From positions 1 through 64,000 of the forward strand of contig JAGXGE010000037.1 of the NCBI GenBank assembly GCA_024637015.1: a DNA stretch of 64,000 nucleotides, read 5' to 3'. The position numbers were made by a program, and so were the translations under genes. Position 1 is the stretch's first letter. Every line of letters begins with the position of its first letter. Below are positions 15,856-52,195 of this stretch, one piece after another. The notes under the pieces were generated by a model. That model did no database searches. It was not told the DNA's origin and saw nothing but the letters and a program-made list of their open reading frames with translations. This DNA comes from Aequorivita sp. Lineage in GTDB: Bacteria > Bacteroidota > Bacteroidia > Flavobacteriales > Flavobacteriaceae.

Positions 15856-15914
15856 TGTCAGGTCGAGCGCAGTGGAGACCTATGTTTAACCTCTCGACTG
15901 CGCTCGAGGAGACA
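15856..15914. repeat. Palindromic repeat, GGTCGAGCGCAGT family, copy A
   Basis: Two inverted arms (GGTCGAGCGCAGTGGAGACC and CTCTCGACTGCGCTCGAG) flanked by TGTC/GACA surround a central AT-rich loop. The same arms occur at 48570-48629 and 51320-51392, and one arm lies inside trpF at 49701-49724. It has the size and symmetry of a REP/MITE-like element. This copy separates two DUF6090 head fragments. Confidence 0.85.
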
Positions 15915-45215: not shown

Positions 45216-45336
45216 TTGCTAAAAATATTGAAAATCAATCTATTTGCAATTTAAATTAACGAATCATTAATAAGTTTAAAGAAACTACAAATTCTTAAAA
45301 TTTTCATTAAACAAAATCATTATAATAAAAATATTA

Positions 45337-45344
45337 TATATTTG
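45337..45344 (+). promoter_or_regulatory. -7 box of the trp operon promoter
   Basis: TATATTTG matches TAnnTTTG and lies 12 bases before the leader ATG, so transcription would start at about 45350 with the leader peptide as first reading frame. Confidence 0.5.
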
Positions 45345-45355
45345 AACCCGAAACA

Positions 45356-45412
45356 ATGAACACAATTACAACAAATACTTGGTGGTGGAAAAACTTACGA
45401 AAAACCTCGTGA
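45356..45412 (+). CDS. trpL: trp leader peptide (attenuation)
   Basis: The 18-codon frame MNTITTNTWWWKNLRKTS ends in TGA and contains three consecutive TGG codons. It lies 86 bases before trpE and 32 bases before a Rho-independent terminator. Stalling at the Trp codons during tryptophan shortage should prevent terminator formation, as in classical trp attenuation. Not in any general frame list because of its length. Confidence 0.85.
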   Translation: MNTITTNTWWWKNLRKTS

Positions 45413-45444
45413 GCTGAACACCTATAGTATAAAACATATACGAA

Positions 45445-45475
45445 AAGGCTTGTCAATCACGACAAGCCTTTTTTT
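45445..45475 (+). terminator. trp attenuator terminator
   Basis: AAGGCTTGTC and GACAAGCCTT form a perfect 10-base stem with loop AATCAC, followed by a run of T. It precedes trpE by 24 bases, so readthrough is required to transcribe the operon. Confidence 0.88.
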
Positions 45476-45498: not shown

Positions 45499-46896
45499 AT
45501 GAAATACAACTTAAAAACACATTCAAAAAAACTATTGGCGGATACGCTCACGCCAGTTTCGGTATATTTGCGGTTGCGCGACAAATTCCCCAATAGCCTT
45601 CTGCTGGAAAGTAGTGACTATCATGCTAATGATAATAGCTTCAGCTATATCTGTTTCAATCCTATTGCTTCAATAAAAGTTGAAAACGAAATCATTTTTC
45701 AGCATTTTCCCGATGGGAAAACTCTTGAAACTAAAATTACTGAAAACATAAATGTCCCTAGAGTTTTAGATGAATTTGCTTCTTCTTTTTCTTCAGAAGC
45801 GGGTAATTTCAAATTTATAAACAAGGGTCTTTTCGGATATATGGCTTTTGATGCAGTGCGGTATTTTGAAGATATTGAACTTCACAAAAAAGAAGAGAAT
45901 CTTGAAATGCCGGATTTGTATTATGCAGTTTATCAAAATATTATTGCCATAAACCATTTCAATAACGAAGCCTATATTTTTGCGCACTGTTTTGATTCCG
46001 AAAACAACATTCCGCAAATTGAACAAATCTTGAAATCGAAGAGTTTTGCTGAATTTCCTTTTAAAAGAAATGGCGAGCGAACAACAAATTTGAACGATGA
46101 AGATTTTAAAATTTTAGTGCGAAAATGCAAGGAACATTGTCAGCGCGGCGATGTGTTTCAAATTGTTCCAAGCAAACGATTTTCGCAAAAATTTACAGGT
46201 GATGAATTCAACGTTTACAGAGCCTTGCGAAGTGTAAACCCTTCACCCTATCTTTTCTATTTTGATTACGGAAATTTTAAAATCTTCGGAAGTTCTCCCG
46301 AAGCGCAATTGATTGTAAAAGGAGATAGAGCCGAAATCCATCCAATAGCCGGAACTTTCAAACGCACCGGAAATGATGAACAGGATGCCGAGCTTGCCAA
46401 AAAACTTTCAGAGGACAAAAAGGAAAACAGCGAACACGTCATGCTTGTTGATTTGGCTAGAAACGATTTAAGCCGTCACGGAACCAATGTAAAAGTGGAA
46501 ACCTATCGCGAAGTTCAATTTTTTTCACACGTTATTCATTTGGTGAGCAAGGTTACGGCCACAAAAAATATAGAAACTTCAACAATGCAAATAGTTGCGG
46601 ATACTTTTCCTGCAGGAACTTTAAGTGGCGCTCCAAAACATAAAGCCTTACAACTGCTGGAAAAATATGAAAATAGAAGTCGTGAATTTTACGGTGGCGC
46701 AATCGGTTTTATGGATTTCAGAGGAAATTTTAACCACGCGATTATCATTCGTTCTTTTGTAAGCAAAAACCACACATTACATTATCAAGCCGGTGCTGGC
46801 GTAGTTTCGGAAAGTAATGAAGAAAATGAATTGCAGGAAGTTTATAACAAATTGGGCGCACTCACCAAAGCGCTGGAATTAGCTGAAAGTATATAA
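45499..46896 (+). CDS. trpE: Anthranilate synthase component I
   Basis: The 465-residue chorismate-using enzyme makes anthranilate with the TrpG amidotransferase. Chorismate-binding motifs are visible: GDVFQIVPSKRF, YLFYFDYGNFKIFGSSPEA, HPIAGTFKRTG, DLARNDLSRHG and the C-terminal YQAGAGVVSESNEENE. The N-terminal LLLESSDYHANDNSFSY resembles the Trp-binding LLES element of feedback-inhibited TrpE. First structural gene of the operon after the attenuator. Confidence 0.95.
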   Translation: MKYNLKTHSKKLLADTLTPVSVYLRLRDKFPNSLLLESSDYHANDNSFSYICFNPIASIKVENEIIFQHFPDGKTLETKITENINVPRVLDEFASSFSSEAGNFKFINKGLFGYMAFDAVRYFEDIELHKKEENLEMPDLYYAVYQNIIAINHFNNEAYIFAHCFDSENNIPQIEQILKSKSFAEFPFKRNGERTTNLNDEDFKILVRKCKEHCQRGDVFQIVPSKRFSQKFTGDEFNVYRALRSVNPSPYLFYFDYGNFKIFGSSPEAQLIVKGDRAEIHPIAGTFKRTGNDEQDAELAKKLSEDKKENSEHVMLVDLARNDLSRHGTNVKVETYREVQFFSHVIHLVSKVTATKNIETSTMQIVADTFPAGTLSGAPKHKALQLLEKYENRSREFYGGAIGFMDFRGNFNHAIIIRSFVSKNHTLHYQAGAGVVSESNEENELQEVYNKLGALTKALELAESI

Positions 46897-46932
46897 GTCC
46901 CCCGACGCCAAAGGGGAGAAAATATTACAACA

Positions 46933-47565
46933 ATGAAAGAAAAAAATAAATTTGACAAACAAACTCCCTTCCCCTCAGGGGAAGGGCTGGGGATGGGGAC
47001 AAAGATTCTCGTCATCGATAATTACGACAGTTTCGTGTACAATTTGGTTCACTATTTAGAGGAATTAGATTGCGAAGTAACCGTAAAACGAAACGATAAG
47101 TTTTATTTGGAAGAAGTTGAAAATTACGACAAAATCCTGCTTTCACCCGGTCCGGGAATTCCAGATGAAGCCGGTTTGCTAAAAGCAGTGATTCAACAAT
47201 ACGCAACTTCAAAGCCTATTCTGGGGGTGTGTTTGGGACAACAAGCCATCGGTGAAGTTTTTGGCGGAAGCCTGGAGAATTTAAGCAAAGTGTTTCACGG
47301 TGTTGCAACAAAAGCAACCATTATCTCTGAAAATGAGCCTCTTTTTAAAGGAATTGAAAAGGAATTCGAAATTGGCCGTTACCATAGCTGGGTGGTTTCA
47401 AAAGAAGGTTTTCCAGAAGTTCTGGAAATTACTTCCGTAGATGAAAATGGACAGATCATGTCTCTTCGCCATAAATTCTATGATGTTTGCGGCGTACAGT
47501 TTCATCCTGAAAGTGTACTTACGCCAATGGGGAAACAGATTATTAAAAATTGGATTGAAAGCTAA
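46933..47565 (+). CDS. trpG: Anthranilate synthase component II (glutamine amidotransferase)
   Basis: Class I glutamine amidotransferase giving ammonia to TrpE. The triad is Cys in LGVCLGQQA and His/Glu in GVQFHPESVL. The frame opens at 46933 and reads through a 35-base repeat as TPFPSGEGLGMG before reaching the normal TrpG start ILVIDNYDSFVYNL. A second in-frame ATG at 46993 lies inside the repeat and yields 190 residues (MGTKILVIDNYDSF), the usual TrpG size, so it may be the real start. Stop is immediately followed by trpD. Confidence 0.9.
   Translation: MKEKNKFDKQTPFPSGEGLGMGTKILVIDNYDSFVYNLVHYLEELDCEVTVKRNDKFYLEEVENYDKILLSPGPGIPDEAGLLKAVIQQYATSKPILGVCLGQQAIGEVFGGSLENLSKVFHGVATKATIISENEPLFKGIEKEFEIGRYHSWVVSKEGFPEVLEITSVDENGQIMSLRHKFYDVCGVQFHPESVLTPMGKQIIKNWIES
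46964..46998. repeat. GC-rich repeat at the 5' end of trpG
   Basis: CCCTTCCCCTCAGGGGAAGG-type hairpin followed by GCTGGGGATGGG. It is the kind of repeat found between genes in many Bacteroidota genomes, but here it is within the trpG frame and contains a possible start codon. A related GC-rich stretch (CCCCCGACGCCAAAGGGG) lies just after trpE at 46898-46916. Confidence 0.7.
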
Positions 47566-48558
47566 ATGAAACAGATTTTAAACAGATTAATAAACCACGA
47601 ACAACTCACCAAAAGTGAGGCGCAAACTGTTTTGGTGAATATTTCCGAGGGAAAATACAACCAAAACCAGATTGCTGCTTTTTTGACGGTTTTCATGATG
47701 CGAAACGTAAGTTTGGAAGAATTGGAAGGTTTCCGGGACGCTTTGTTAGATTTATGTTTAGCTGTAGATTTCACCGAATATAAGACCATCGATTTATGCG
47801 GAACTGGCGGTGACGGAAAAAACACTTTTAATATTTCAACCTTGGCATCTTTCGTTACGGCTGGCGCAGGAATTAATGTCACAAAGCATGGCAATTATGG
47901 AGTTTCCTCAGTGAGCGGAAGCAGTAACGTAATGGAAGCTTTGGGCATAAAATTCAGCAACGAAAAGAATTTTTTAAAACGTTGTTTGGACGAAGCTGGA
48001 ATTTGCGTTTTGCATGCGCCCCTCTTCCACCCCGCAATGAAAAACGTGGCGCCAATAAGAAAGGAATTAGGTGTAAAAACCTTCTTCAATATGCTCGGGC
48101 CAATGGTAAATCCGGCATTTCCAAAAAACCAATTAGTTGGAGTTTTCGATTTGGAATTGGCGCGAATGTATGGGTATCTCTATCAAAAAAGCGAAAAGAA
48201 TTATGCCGTGCTCCACGCAATGGATGGATATGACGAAATTTCGCTGACCGGCCCTGTAAAAGTGATTTCGAAAAATTCAGAAAATATTTTGAATGCAGAA
48301 GATTTCGGTATTAAACAAATCGAGGAGTCCGAAATATTTGGTGGGGAAACCGTAAAAGAATCCGCTACAATATTTATGGATATCCTAAACGGAGAAGGTG
48401 CCGAAGCTCAGAATAACGTAGTCTGCGCAAATGCTGGAATGGCAATTTCAGTAGTTGAAAATTGTACGATAAAAGAAGGTTTTGAAAAAGCGAAGGAATC
48501 GCTGCATTCGGGAAAAGCTCTGAATTCGTTGAAGAAATTGCAGCATCTATCAAAATAA
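47566..48558 (+). CDS. trpD: Anthranilate phosphoribosyltransferase
   Basis: The 330-residue enzyme attaches phosphoribose to anthranilate. Motifs are DLCGTGGDGKNTFNIST (PRPP loop), KHGNYGVSSVSGSSNVMEALG, and FNMLGPMVNPA. It starts directly at the base following the trpG stop, so translation is probably coupled. Confidence 0.96.
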   Translation: MKQILNRLINHEQLTKSEAQTVLVNISEGKYNQNQIAAFLTVFMMRNVSLEELEGFRDALLDLCLAVDFTEYKTIDLCGTGGDGKNTFNISTLASFVTAGAGINVTKHGNYGVSSVSGSSNVMEALGIKFSNEKNFLKRCLDEAGICVLHAPLFHPAMKNVAPIRKELGVKTFFNMLGPMVNPAFPKNQLVGVFDLELARMYGYLYQKSEKNYAVLHAMDGYDEISLTGPVKVISKNSENILNAEDFGIKQIEESEIFGGETVKESATIFMDILNGEGAEAQNNVVCANAGMAISVVENCTIKEGFEKAKESLHSGKALNSLKKLQHLSK

Positions 48559-48569
48559 AAAATTAAGAA

Positions 48570-48629
48570 TGTCTGGTCGAGCGCAGTCGAGACCTTTATA
48601 AACAGTTCTCGAATGCGCTCGAACTGACA
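48570..48629. repeat. Palindromic repeat, GGTCGAGCGCAGT family, copy B (trpD-trpC gap)
   Basis: Arms TGGTCGAGCGCAGTCGAGAC and TTCTCGAATGCGCTCGAACT flanked by TGTC/GACA. 48571-48594 is the exact reverse complement of 49701-49724 in trpF. It fills most of the gap between trpD and trpC, a break in an otherwise tight operon. Confidence 0.88.
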
Positions 48630-48648
48630 ATAAATAAGAATTAATAAA

Positions 48649-49431
48649 ATGACAATTTTAGATAAAATAACTGCCTACAAATTCAAAGAAGTTGCGGCAA
48701 AAAAGGAAGCCATCCCTACTCGTTTACTTGAAAAGTTTCCGCTATTCGCAAAAGAAACAAAATCTTTAGCGGAAGCGTTGCGAATTTCTACCACGGGTAT
48801 TATCGCCGAACACAAACGTCGCTCGCCCAGCAAAGCGGTCATAAACGATAAAGTTTTGTTGCACGAAGTGGTTTCGGGTTATGAACTTGCTGGCGCAAAA
48901 GGAATTTCTGTATTGACAGACTCGAACTTTTTTGGCGGTTCACTGGACGATTTACTTGTGGTTGAGAAAACAGTTTCCATCCCCATTCTTCGGAAGGAAT
49001 TTATAATTGATCCCTACCAAATTTATGAGGCAAGAGCCTATGGAGCCGACGCAATTTTATTGATTGCCACTTGCCTTTCTGCGGAAGAGCTTAAGCAGTT
49101 TTCACATTTGGCAAAAAGCTTAAAACTCGATGTTTTGCTAGAAGTCCACAATTTCGAAGAGCTTCAAAAATCATTATTGCCGAATGTAGATATGATTGGC
49201 GTGAACAATCGGAATCTGAAAAATTTTAAAGTGAATATTGAAACGAGTAAAAAGCTATCTCAAGAAATTCCAACCGATTTTGTAAAAATATCCGAAAGTG
49301 GAATCAGTGATGTTGAAACTATAAAAGACTTGAAAACATACGGTTTTGAAGGATTTCTGATAGGCGAAAATTTTATGAAGACAGAAAATCCGGGCGAAAC
49401 TGCAAAGCGATTTATTGAAAAATTAAGATGA
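48649..49431 (+). CDS. trpC: Indole-3-glycerol phosphate synthase
   Basis: The 260-residue TIM-barrel enzyme closes the indole ring. It shows IIAEHKRRSPSKAVI, ISVLTDSNFFGGS, PILRKEFIIDPYQIYEARAYGADAILLI, VNNRNLKNF and KISESGI, the conserved strand ends of the family with catalytic Lys and Glu. ATGA overlaps trpF by four bases. Confidence 0.96.
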   Translation: MTILDKITAYKFKEVAAKKEAIPTRLLEKFPLFAKETKSLAEALRISTTGIIAEHKRRSPSKAVINDKVLLHEVVSGYELAGAKGISVLTDSNFFGGSLDDLLVVEKTVSIPILRKEFIIDPYQIYEARAYGADAILLIATCLSAEELKQFSHLAKSLKLDVLLEVHNFEELQKSLLPNVDMIGVNNRNLKNFKVNIETSKKLSQEIPTDFVKISESGISDVETIKDLKTYGFEGFLIGENFMKTENPGETAKRFIEKLR

Positions 49432-50078
49432 AACCATTATTAAAAATCTGTGGAATGAAAAACAATGTCGCTGAAGTTGCAGCACTTCAGCCAGATTATT
49501 TGGGTTTTATTTTTTATGAAAAAAGTCCAAGGTTTTTTGACCGTGAAGAGATTCCTGAATTGCCGGCTGGAATTAAAAAAGTTGGCGTTTTTGTAGATGC
49601 TTCATTGGAAAATATATTAGAGAAAGTCAGGAAATATAAGTTGAATATAATTCAATTGCATGGGGATGAAAGTGTGGATTTCTGTAAAAAATTAAAAGAA
49701 GGTCTCGACTGCGCTCGACCAGACAAAAGTGATACTGTCGAGATTTGGAAAGTTTTTTCAATAAGAGATAAATTCGATTTCGAAATTTTAAAACCCTACG
49801 AAAAGATTGTGGACAAATTTCTTTTCGACACAAAAGGAAGAGAAAAAGGCGGAAATGGCTTCACTTTCAATTGGGATACCCTCAAAAATTATCCTTCAAA
49901 AAAACCTTTCATTTTAAGCGGCGGAATTGGTTTGGAAGAAATTAATTCCCTTAAAGAATTACTAAAAACAGATCTTCCTATCCACGATATTGATGTGAAC
50001 AGTAAGTTTGAAATTGAACCGGGGTTGAAGAATATTTCGACTTTGCAGAAATTCATTTCTACTATGAAACAAGACTAA
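49428..50078 (+). CDS. trpF: Phosphoribosylanthranilate isomerase with repeat-derived insertion
   Basis: The 216-residue TIM-barrel enzyme has the catalytic cysteine at LKICGMKN (residue 8) and VQLHG-type segment IIQLHGDESVDFC and DINSKFE-like DVNSKFEIEPG end. Residues 92-100 (GLDCARPDK) come from an arm of the GGTCGAGCGCAGT palindrome and lie in a surface loop before VEIWKVF. The frame is kept. Whether activity is affected is not known. Confidence 0.93.
   Translation: MKPLLKICGMKNNVAEVAALQPDYLGFIFYEKSPRFFDREEIPELPAGIKKVGVFVDASLENILEKVRKYKLNIIQLHGDESVDFCKKLKEGLDCARPDKSDTVEIWKVFSIRDKFDFEILKPYEKIVDKFLFDTKGREKGGNGFTFNWDTLKNYPSKKPFILSGGIGLEEINSLKELLKTDLPIHDIDVNSKFEIEPGLKNISTLQKFISTMKQD
49701..49724. 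repeat. Half palindromic repeat inside trpF
   Basis: These 24 bases are a perfect inverted match to 48571-48594 in the trpD-trpC gap. The arm is read in frame from codon 92. No second arm follows, so it is a half element or a decayed element. Confidence 0.88.
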
Positions 50079-50105
50079 AGGGAAACACGACTCAATACTT
50101 AAAAA

Positions 50106-51287
50106 ATGAATTATAACGTAAACAAAAAAGGCTATTACGGTGAATTTGGAGGAGCTTACATTCCCGAAATGCTGTACCCAAACGTGGAAGAGCTACGGCA
50201 AAATTATTTGGAGGTAATGGCAGAAGAGTCTTTCCAAAAAGAATTCCGCGAATTGCTGAAAGATTATGTGGGACGACCTACTCCGCTTTATTTTGCGAAG
50301 CGCCTTTCGGAAAAATACAAAACCAAAATTTATTTAAAACGCGAAGATCTTTGTCATACTGGAGCACATAAAATAAACAACACCATTGGTCAGATTTTAA
50401 TGGCAAAGCGATTGGGAAAAACCCGAATCATTGCCGAAACCGGTGCTGGGCAGCACGGCGTTGCAACTGCCACTGTTTGCGCATTGATGGGCTTGGAGTG
50501 CATTGTTTTTATGGGAGAAATTGACATTAAACGTCAAGCACCAAATGTTGCCCGAATGAAAATGCTTGGTGCAAAAGTAGTTCCTGCAATTAGTGGCAGC
50601 AAAACCTTAAAAGATGCTACAAACGAAACCATTCGCGATTGGATAAACAATCCTGTTGACACGCATTATATAATAGGTAGCGTGGTTGGTCCGCACCCCT
50701 ACCCTGATATGGTGGCGCGTTTTCAAAGTGTAGTTTCCGAAGAAATAAAATCGCAGCTCAATGAAAAAGAAGGACGCGAAAATCCTGATTTCGTAGTGGC
50801 TTGTGTAGGCGGAGGAAGCAATGCTGCTGGTGCTTTTTATCATTATTTGGACAAGCCGGAAGTGGGTATAATTGCCGTGGAAGCTGCTGGAAAAGGAATA
50901 TATAGCGGGGAAAGTGCCGCAACATCGGCTTTGGGAAAAGTCGGTATCATTCACGGTAGTAAAACGTTATTAATGCAAACGGCTGATGGGCAAATCACCG
51001 AACCCTATTCTATTTCAGCAGGGTTGGATTATCCTGGGGTTGGACCTATGCACGCCAATCTTTTTGCAAGCGGCCGAGGAGAATTCATTTCAATAACGGA
51101 TGACGAAGCTATGCAGGCTGGACTGGAACTTTGCAAATTGGAAGGTATTATTCCAGCTATTGAATCCAGCCATGCACTTGCAATTTTTGAAACTAGGAAA
51201 TTCAAAAAAGATGACGTGGTAGTTGTTAATTTAAGCGGGCGGGGGGATAAAGATTTAGAAACGTATATCAAACATTTCAATTTATGA
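50106..51287 (+). CDS. trpB: Tryptophan synthase beta subunit
   Basis: The 393-residue PLP enzyme joins indole and serine. The PLP lysine is in HTGAHKINN, and the phosphate loop in [24 protein letters not shown]-like start ([15 protein letters not shown]) and [10 protein letters not shown] are usual TrpB motifs. Length is normal. Confidence 0.97.
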
Positions 51288-51319
51288 ATCATAGTTTGAT
51301 TTAATAATAATAACCTGTT

Positions 51320-51392
51320 TGTCCGGTCGAGCGCCGTCGAGAACTCGTTTTGAAGTCTAGGTTTTTAGTTCTCGACTGCGCTCGAACAGACA
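51320..51392. repeat. Palindromic repeat, GGTCGAGCGCAGT family, copy C (trpB-trpA gap)
   Basis: Arms TGTCCGGTCGAGCGCCGTCG and TTCTCGACTGCGCTCGAACA enclose a longer loop. It sits in the 140-base gap between trpB and trpA, the second break in the operon that is occupied by this family. Confidence 0.85.
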
Positions 51393-51427
51393 TTAAAACA
51401 TACTTTTAGATAATACAATTATTCACT

Positions 51428-52195
51428 ATGAATAGAATTCAAATTGAGCTTTCAGAAAACAAAAAGCTGCTCTCCATCTACTTCACCGCAGGTTATCCGA
51501 AATTGGATGATACGGTTGAAATACTTCAGCAATTGGAAAAAAGTGGAGTTAACATGGTTGAAATTGGCTTGCCCTTCAGCGATCCTTTGGCAGATGGACC
51601 AACTATTCAAGAAAGTTCACAAGAAGCTTTAAAAAATGGAATGACCACCGATTTACTTTTTCAACAATTGAAAGACGTTCGAGCAACTGTTTCCATTCCA
51701 ATGATAATTATGGGCTATTTCAATCCCGTACTTCAGTTTGGCGTGGAAAATTTCTGTAAAAAATGTGCAGAAGTCGGTATTGATGGATTGATTCTTCCAG
51801 ACCTTCCCTTGGCAGAATTTGAGGAGCATTATTCTGAAATCTTCAAAAAGCATGGCTTGATCAATATCTTTTTGATTACGCCACAAACATCCGAAGAACG
51901 GATTCGGCAGATTGATTCAGCTTCCGAAGGCTTTATATATATGGTGAGCAGTGCAAGCGTTACGGGAAGTTCCGATGGTTTCGGAACGGTACAGGAAAAT
52001 TATTTTGAAAGAATAGCTTCGCTTTCGCTTACCAATCCACAAATCGTTGGCTTCGGAATAAATAATTCTGAAACATTTCTGCAAGCAACAAAAAACACAA
52101 ATGGAGCAATTATTGGCAGTGCCTTTATAAAAATGCTTTCGGTAAAAGGGTTGTGTGGAATTTCAGAATTTATCGATTCCATTAGGAAGGTTTAA
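51428..52195 (+). CDS. trpA: Tryptophan synthase alpha subunit
   Basis: The 255-residue TIM-barrel protein cleaves indole-glycerol phosphate. The catalytic Glu lies in MVEIGLPFSDPLADGP and the Asp in GLILPDLPLAEFEE; VSSASVTGSSDGFG is the phosphate-binding loop. Last gene of the operon. Confidence 0.97.
   Translation: MNRIQIELSENKKLLSIYFTAGYPKLDDTVEILQQLEKSGVNMVEIGLPFSDPLADGPTIQESSQEALKNGMTTDLLFQQLKDVRATVSIPMIIMGYFNPVLQFGVENFCKKCAEVGIDGLILPDLPLAEFEEHYSEIFKKHGLINIFLITPQTSEERIRQIDSASEGFIYMVSSASVTGSSDGFGTVQENYFERIASLSLTNPQIVGFGINNSETFLQATKNTNGAIIGSAFIKMLSVKGLCGISEFIDSIRKV

Follow-up and report, generated by a model that had tools for sequence, protein, structure and literature searches.

In-frame insertion of a REP-like palindromic repeat in a TrpF surface loop of Aequorivita, and re-use of the same loop across the Flavobacteriaceae

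Introduction

Paired inverted hairpins are miniature mobile units in REPIN/RAYT systems and BIMEs, and REPtrons have a hairpin-gene-hairpin layout. REP/RAYT systems are characterized by a GTAG tag on the repeat and an HUH transposase.

A second class of REPs carries a CGTC or TGTC tag. In the portion of the 2013 survey on which we draw (PMC3733652), these are short tagged hairpins in head-to-head dimers, mostly intergenic with some inside genes, reported in five phyla including the Bacteroidetes. Families 1-4 have a CGTC/TGTC tag, an 8-9 bp stem with complementary A/T at the first and second position, a loop of 4-5 nt, a CCA tail, and predominantly head-to-head dimers, with other loop lengths in a few species. 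The same portion notes that, in one instance, two Xanthomonas carry different REPs at roughly the same position in recB. The Rickettsia palindromic elements (RPEs), as presented in excerpts of two further papers, are about 150 bp long with a conserved peptide (PMC10969869), and lie in frame in unrelated metabolic genes where they are read through in translation (PMC10969869, PMC2635572); those excerpts make no mention of one loop being re-used by several families.

Here we describe a stretch of trpF from Aequorivita in which a REP-like mobile palindrome has inserted in frame, as with intragenic REPs and RPEs. The repeat, R1, resembles RPEs in its insertion into unrelated protein genes (trpF, leuS, hisA, and 3-hydroxyacyl-CoA dehydrogenase) but differs in having a 26-nt unit that is read in different frames and in occurring in another phylum. 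Two points are new: the family-wide re-use of one enzyme loop, and a candidate nuclease cassette. Neither the loop re-use nor a nuclease gene between the repeats is a feature of the CGTC REPs in the consulted parts of PMC3733652.

Results

A dispersed repeat in the trp operon

The window is the whole 64,000-nucleotide stretch of DNA analyzed. It is contig C12 of a 3.22-Mb genome of the genus Aequorivita (G000; other G numbers are the other genomes compared), and it contains the following features.

45499..52195, + strand: trp operon (trpE, G, D, C, F, B, A), from ORFs, NCBIfam for F, C, D, and G, and operon comparison; E, B, and A named from sequence
49428..50078, + strand: trpF, phosphoribosylanthranilate isomerase, 216 aa (ORF; Pfam PF00697, 1.7e-30; best PDB folds TrpF 1dl3/1lbm/1nsj)
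49700..49725, - strand: single R1 unit in trpF, coding for GLDCARPD (covariance-model match, 45.2 bits)
48570..48629: R1 head-to-head dimer in the trpD-trpC gap (48570-48595 +, 48604-48629 -; inverted-pair search, covariance model)
51320..51392: R1 head-to-head dimer in the trpB-trpA gap (51320-51345 +, 51367-51392 -; inverted-pair search, covariance model)
15856..15914: further R1 dimer, outside the trp operon (covariance model)

The first-pass annotation had reported that 24 bases of trpF are an exact inverted copy of an arm in the trpD-trpC gap. We confirmed this identity, and it is longer: 48570-48596 and 49699-49725 are 100% complementary over 27 nt, of which the 24 are the inner part. 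Codon 92 of trpF does start at 49701, and the ORF translation of the 24 bases reads GLDCARPD. The claim that chance is an insufficient explanation was also borne out, as a 27-nt perfect inverted pair is expected about 7e-7 times in the window given its base composition. The window has five places within three mismatches of the arm, and 100 shuffles have none. A special relation of the two arms to one another was not supported. The first arm of the trpD-trpC dimer is indeed an exact inverted copy of the trpF unit, but both carry the consensus of a dispersed family, and the exact 25-mer occurs five times in the genome, also on two contigs other than that of the window.

The annotation had further stated that the arms can pair in the trp mRNA. 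This is physically possible: in an equilibrium fold of 48560-49760 as naked RNA, which takes no account of ribosomes or of the local dimer folding during transcription, the trpD-trpC arm pairs with the trpF arm at a mean probability of 0.99, and the duplex reaches -56.4 kcal/mol versus -31.7 when the arm pairs within its dimer. A conserved partnership did not hold up. G004, a close relative, keeps the trpF unit, yet its trpD and trpC abut and no repeat separates them. The dimer is likewise absent from G027 and G019, where the genes also abut, and only G000 among the 20 operons examined has R1 in both trpF and the trpD-trpC gap. The trpB-trpA gap holds an R1 dimer in G005 as well as in G000. 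The 6.7-kb operon contains 5 of the 49 R1 matches in the genome, corresponding to 3 of 38 insertions (Poisson chance of at least three, about 8e-5). As the operon was looked at on account of the trpF finding, this richness is to be taken as a lead.

Other elements were observed in and around the operon. The Rfam Bacteroid-trp leader RF01692 lies at 45336-45454 (66.9 bits), upstream of trpE. The trpE-trpG junction holds a CCCCT-type palindrome (CTTCCCCTCAGGGGAAGGGCTGGGGATGGGG, 46963-47000), which the long trpG ORF takes in as its N-terminus; most family matches to TrpG begin at residue 23-27, so the true start is probably an ATG within the palindrome repeat. Short tandem CTCAATA repeats of varying number occupy the trpF-trpB gap of G004, G027, G018, and G020 (L107, L108, L109, and L111).

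Anatomy and distribution of R1

R1 is a dispersed family with a 26-nt unit made up of a TGTC tag and a hairpin. The covariance model finds 49 matches in G000 at E<=0.01 (three of them longer, loose alignments), 56 at E<=1, and 48 with stricter filters. In plain searches of the same genome, 24 places lie within three mismatches of one R1 25-mer, with none for the reversed control, and the 14-nt core is found at 41 places with at most one mismatch. The family is present in 33 of 59 genomes, comprising all 28 from the genus Aequorivita and 5 of the 31 others. Two arrangements were seen in passing. In G002 (L358:580-1405), nine units of one orientation form a near-regular array with a spacing of about 100 bp, and G000 has two copies of one R1-bearing stretch, in inverse orientation and separated by 32 kb (C1:8773-8870 and C1:40813-40910).

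In order, the unit has the TGTC tag, a single free base, two stem positions whose pairs covary, TCGA, a loop of six bases, a second TCGA, a bulged GA, the partners of the two stem positions, and a T, which gives the hairpin scheme GG-TCGA/TCGA-(GA)-CC with six pairs, a 2-nt bulge, and a loop of 6. The tag is present in 20 of 21 distinct unit sequences, across which 92.1% of cells pair. Changes on both sides of the stem are those of the two outer pairs, seen as GG/CC, GT/AC, CC/GG, and CT/AG. There are 16 double-change cells versus 6.0 in shuffles, and the covariation score is reached by none of 500 shuffles. Two other counts are not above shuffles: 398 of 500 reach the observed 2 pairs with a double change, and 405 of 500 reach the observed 4 further pair types. 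Since the sequences are related copies, the covariation supports a constraint on the hairpin in a DNA or RNA strand rather than any particular function. Single units fold little or no better than shuffles; dimers do fold better.

R1 shares a tag at one end, short hairpins, head-to-head dimers, and a mostly intergenic location with some copies in genes with the CGTC/TGTC REPs as characterized in the part of PMC3733652 used here. It departs from families 1-4 of that account in its stem (six pairs, a 2-nt bulge, and outer pairs GC/CG and UA/GC/CG), in its loop of 6, and in having no CCA tail. Those families are predominantly head-to-head dimers; the 49 matches in G000 group into 11 inverted dimers, in 9 of which TGTC faces outward, plus 27 units that stand alone. 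By the criteria tested, and to the extent that they are set out in this part of the survey, R1 is outside the described CGTC families and outside REP/RAYT.

R1 units inside enzymes and the TrpF structure

One common form of R1 is open in all six frames, which makes read-through possible; a second form has a stop in one frame. We inspected 43 of the 49 matches in G000 for ORFs, counting as intragenic neither overlaps with short ORFs nor those at ORF ends, and 4 of the 43 are in frame inside recognizable enzymes: trpF, leuS, hisA, and 3-hydroxyacyl-CoA dehydrogenase. The leuS unit (TIGR00396, E 2.1e-224) is near the start of the editing domain PF13603. The hisA unit (TIGR00007; L385:3902-4687, G000 C27:50784) is a partly decayed R1, in frame, at 26.0 bits; HisA is another barrel isomerase with an in-frame copy.

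The AlphaFold2 model of TrpF has a mean pLDDT of 88.4, and 74 over residues 91-100. It places the insert in an alpha-beta loop between helix 83-93 and strand 105-112, and aligned Thermotoga TrpF chains are about 11 aa shorter at this site. Alpha-beta loops lie on the barrel face without the catalytic loops, where extra residues are tolerated. A six-sequence alignment shows no variation at Cys8 and Asp134, which we take to correspond to the catalytic pair of Thermotoga.

One TrpF loop, many insertions

We aligned 174 Flavobacteriaceae TrpF sequences from 173 genomes (29 + 28 loci and 117 fetched stretches; 195 core columns). The sample draws on 232 genomes matched in one search, of which only those with coordinates were used; it therefore favors TrpF resembling that of G000, and it is restricted to matches from within the Flavobacteriaceae. 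The TrpF of G010 (contains N) was left out, and that of G226 (internal stop) was aligned as its longest open piece only. Inserts of at least 8 aa occur in 38 of the 174, all after G000 residue 92; elsewhere, inserts do not exceed 5 aa.

Recognizable repeats are present in the loop DNA of 27 of the 174 trpF genes, and they belong to several families, in both orientations and different frames. R1 is forward in four (G000, G004, G005, and, weakly, G030), reverse in four (G020, G078, G180, and G267), and a dimer in G278. The LVEA type is found in three (G027, G018, and G019), the HAEL type in nine, among them G228, which also has an R1 unit, and the EER type in six. Some of the 38 long loops have no recognizable repeat. 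In the remainder of all 174 genes, the loop motifs match only three times, with none for R1, LVEA, or HAEL, although only R1 was defined independently of the trpF loops, the LVEA, HAEL, and EER motifs having been derived from the loops themselves. Across the family, palindromic repeats have re-used one enzyme loop.

In most of the genomes that have them, the R1 and HAEL inserts belong to dispersed repeats. The first-pass annotation had named GLDCARPD residues in TrpF of species without the repeat family as the observation that would count against it. This check went in its favor: among the 11 genomes with an R1-type match in the loop, 10 carry R1 elsewhere, with 10 to 132 matches each. The exception is G030, which has a weak loop match, 0 genome-wide matches, and a genome that is 80% complete. 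HAEL is dispersed in 9 of 13 genomes tested (none in G027, G018, G019, and G195), and the EER core is found in 7 of 7 genomes at 1 to 7 copies each, in G258 as the trpF copy only.

On the TrpF tree, built with the loop left out, at least 18 changes are needed for repeat presence and 23 for repeat kind, with gains and losses indistinguishable. A single clade of the 27 repeat-bearing TrpF, a group named by its inserts, is rejected (p-AU 0.0025). Within the genus, a clade of G004 with the pair G027+G018 is supported (100/98), and their inserts differ. Most of the operon tree of the genus lacks resolution, with 13 of 17 inner branches open. G000, G004, and G005, whose TrpF are 74-85% identical to that of G000, have one R1 unit at one place in common, and the G004 unit is the G000 unit with three base changes. 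We also looked for an exact target sequence for R1, and saw none that is base-precise: the G000 and G020 units start at different offsets from the same codon.

Nuclease genes between the repeats

A GIY-YIG ORF of G000 (C35, L053:1065-1421; PF01541, 2.4e-18) is situated among R1 units, between genes that we read from their translations as purK- and purE-like. The same gene, at 72-98% identity, is present in 7 of 20 further R1 regions and not in the other 13, a non-random sample because the regions were mostly picked for closely spaced R1 units. R1 units lie on both sides of the gene in eight genomes, G000 included, these also being chosen partly for close R1 pairs. Five of the cassettes have intact units on both sides with TGTC outward; one unit is decayed in G012, and G000 and G024 have a flipped unit before the gene. 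In G013, the nuclease gene itself is broken. There are at least four contexts: purK/purE, purE/peptidase, and two unrelated places in other genera. The layout and paired inverted hairpins are like those of REPINs and REPtrons. The small GIY-YIG domain and mobile appearance recall GIY-YIG homing endonucleases (PF01541), but no intron or intein was seen around the gene, and the brackets also exist as many nuclease-free copies.

We scored the inverted repeats that bracket such genes. A score of 16 is reached by 1 of 400 random 300-bp segments of Flavobacteriaceae loci and by 4 of 159 random segments of plasmid loci, and two of the eight R1-chosen cassettes fall below it. Blind to the repeats, we found two GIY genes in 78 trpF-centered control loci, both between trpB and trpA. 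That of G117 is bracketed by HAEL-type palindromes (18.0 versus a shuffle maximum of 12.0). That of G255 is bracketed by another palindrome type (22.5 versus 9.5) once the upstream window is moved to the start codon, compared with 7.5 versus 10.5 before the move. As these genes come from trpF-centered loci, their placement in the trp operon is partly ascertainment. Within the trpF-centered loci scanned, the trpB-trpA gap is the site both of the R1 dimers of G000 and G005 and of these two nuclease genes between palindromes.

GIY homologs are also found on plasmids, in 29 PLSDB records. Of 14 that were fetched (same-species or same-genus duplicates, Proteus, Xanthomonas, Bacillus, Enterobacter, Legionella, Salmonella, and Klebsiella being left out), 5 are bracketed by palindromes and 9 are not. 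The bracketed ones, all from other phyla, are from Sphingomonas parapaucimobilis, Methylobacterium bullatum, two Sinorhizobium that are close relatives, and Planktothrix. Brackets accompany 5 of the 6 homologs with at least 37% identity to the query and 0 of the 8 below (Fisher p 0.003, with the cut set after seeing the data). From a search with the Sphingomonas gene, one new record was taken, Listeria being left out; this additional Methylobacterium (H33) is also bracketed, at 51.5 versus 10.5. Five 20-kb stretches of the repeat-rich G180 contained no GIY gene, and viral contigs scanned with the GIY protein yielded no relative.

Genes of DUF559 (PF04480) resemble the GIY cassette in that a nuclease-like domain has palindromic ends, here of the CCCC...CCCTTTAGGG type. 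They differ in domain, in repeat family, and in having weaker brackets. Among DUF559 loci picked by family alone (25 scored of 30), the inverted repeat across the gene exceeds the maximum of 30 shuffles in 16 of 25, and the score is at least 16 in 6 of 25. A DUF559 domain is also in frame in leuS, at the R1 site of G000, in 7 of 27 loci, with CCCC-type palindromes near its ends. LeuRS loops were looked at in 27 of the 39 genomes with a match. The seven (L304-L310: G018, G011, G020, G002, G015, G012, and G019) have the domain at the start of the editing domain, in a loop of 152-187 aa versus 19-35 aa in the other 20 loci. Of four DUF559 leuS loci scored, two are above their shuffles and two are not. 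The palindrome at the trpE-trpG junction of the window resembles the repeats beside DUF559 genes.

Among the matches listed in a search of the open-licence literature, no paper connects palindromic repeats with GIY-YIG or DUF559 genes, and none reports repeats in TrpF. The words "nuclease" and "transposase" do not appear in the portion of the RepRanger paper covered here (PMC12306157).

Discussion

How the repeat may have reached trpF

We are fairly confident in the following reading as a whole: the trpF bases are an R1 unit that landed in frame in a surface loop of TrpF, one re-hit across the Flavobacteriaceae, and R1 would stem from a proposed GIY-YIG cassette. The repeat family, its covariation, the in-frame position, the re-use of the loop, and relatives devoid of the units we regard as shown; the cassette is inferred. 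It would have the layout TGTC-hairpin, GIY-YIG nuclease, hairpin-GACA, and R1 units would be either its ends or miniatures left by internal deletion. Full cassettes, dimers, and single units would be spread by the nuclease, or through repair of the breaks that it makes at hairpins, and intragenic landings would mostly be purged, with survivors mainly in loops. No R1 copy was seen to move in the genomes compared, and for the cassette as the source of R1, a candidate with putative mobilization, we put the chances at about even.

A classical REP/RAYT system would instead have an HUH tyrosine (Y1) transposase moving the repeats, with the nuclease association incidental. The terminal tag, bulged hairpin, and dimers of R1 are REP-like, and G000 has two Y1_Tnp genes, but neither is flanked by R1 within 1.5 kb (for the C5 copy, which is at a contig end, on one side only), and the R1 cassette has a TGTC tag, not GTAG, and a GIY-YIG nuclease. 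In addition, CGTC-tagged REPs were reported without a dedicated transposase in the section of the survey at hand (Di Nocera 2013, PMC3733652). Altogether, this makes a REP/RAYT origin unlikely.

Gene conversion could have copied the trpF unit from the neighboring operon copies, or kept it identical to them, with no transposition. Consistent with this, the trpF unit is identical over 27 bp to a copy 1.1 kb away, whereas the G004 unit differs by three bases. However, the same 25-mer is found on two other contigs, G004 and G020 have R1 in trpF and none in the rest of the fetched operon, and conversion presupposes a unit already in place. We consider it quite improbable.

It is similarly doubtful that the loop insert is selected at the protein level, e.g., for a contact or for stability, with repeats as raw material only. 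The single insert site in TrpF and the unit common to G000, G004, and G005, whose TrpF are 74-85% identical to that of G000, would fit such selection, but the inserts vary in sequence, frame, length, and orientation, and 147 of the 174 loops have no recognized repeat.

A single ancient insertion with later divergence and no repeated events would account for the shared unit of G000, G004, and G005, and the seven Aequorivita TrpF with inserts do branch close to the base of the genus on the TrpF tree. Within those seven, one insertion with later turnover could hold. For the whole Flavobacteriaceae set, a single ancestral insertion is rejected on the TrpF tree (at least 18 changes; p-AU 0.0025 against a single clade), and the same loop holds different families in opposite orientations, so we judge this reading very unlikely overall.

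Finally, the first-pass idea of a functional pair, here taken as regulation of the trp mRNA by a long-range helix of the trpF and trpD-trpC arms, is the least credible and hardly to be entertained: the 27 perfect pairs are stable in the naked fold, but the empty trpD-trpC gap of G004 leads us to reject the helix as a conserved feature, both R1 sites occur only in G000 of 20 operons, and the operon already has a known leader, RF01692.

Implications

The insertion of an R1 unit in the TrpF loop may be part of a wider pattern. It is an evenly balanced proposition that TGTC/CGTC-tagged repeats represent the ends, and miniature forms, of a mobile element with a GIY-YIG nuclease in Bacteroidota, Alphaproteobacteria, and Cyanobacteria, with a parallel DUF559-nuclease system. 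Both systems would add short peptides in frame to surface loops of essential enzymes, or, as in LeuRS, an entire nuclease domain, and TrpF would be a landing site used throughout the family.

The mover of the CGTC-class REPs was left open in the part of the 2013 survey that we cite (PMC3733652). A nuclease gene that lies repeatedly between such repeats makes the question of the mover directly testable. In the trpF loop, palindromic DNA has rewritten the same enzyme surface repeatedly in nature, and the resulting inserts are ready natural insertion variants for studying how proteins tolerate or adopt new peptides.
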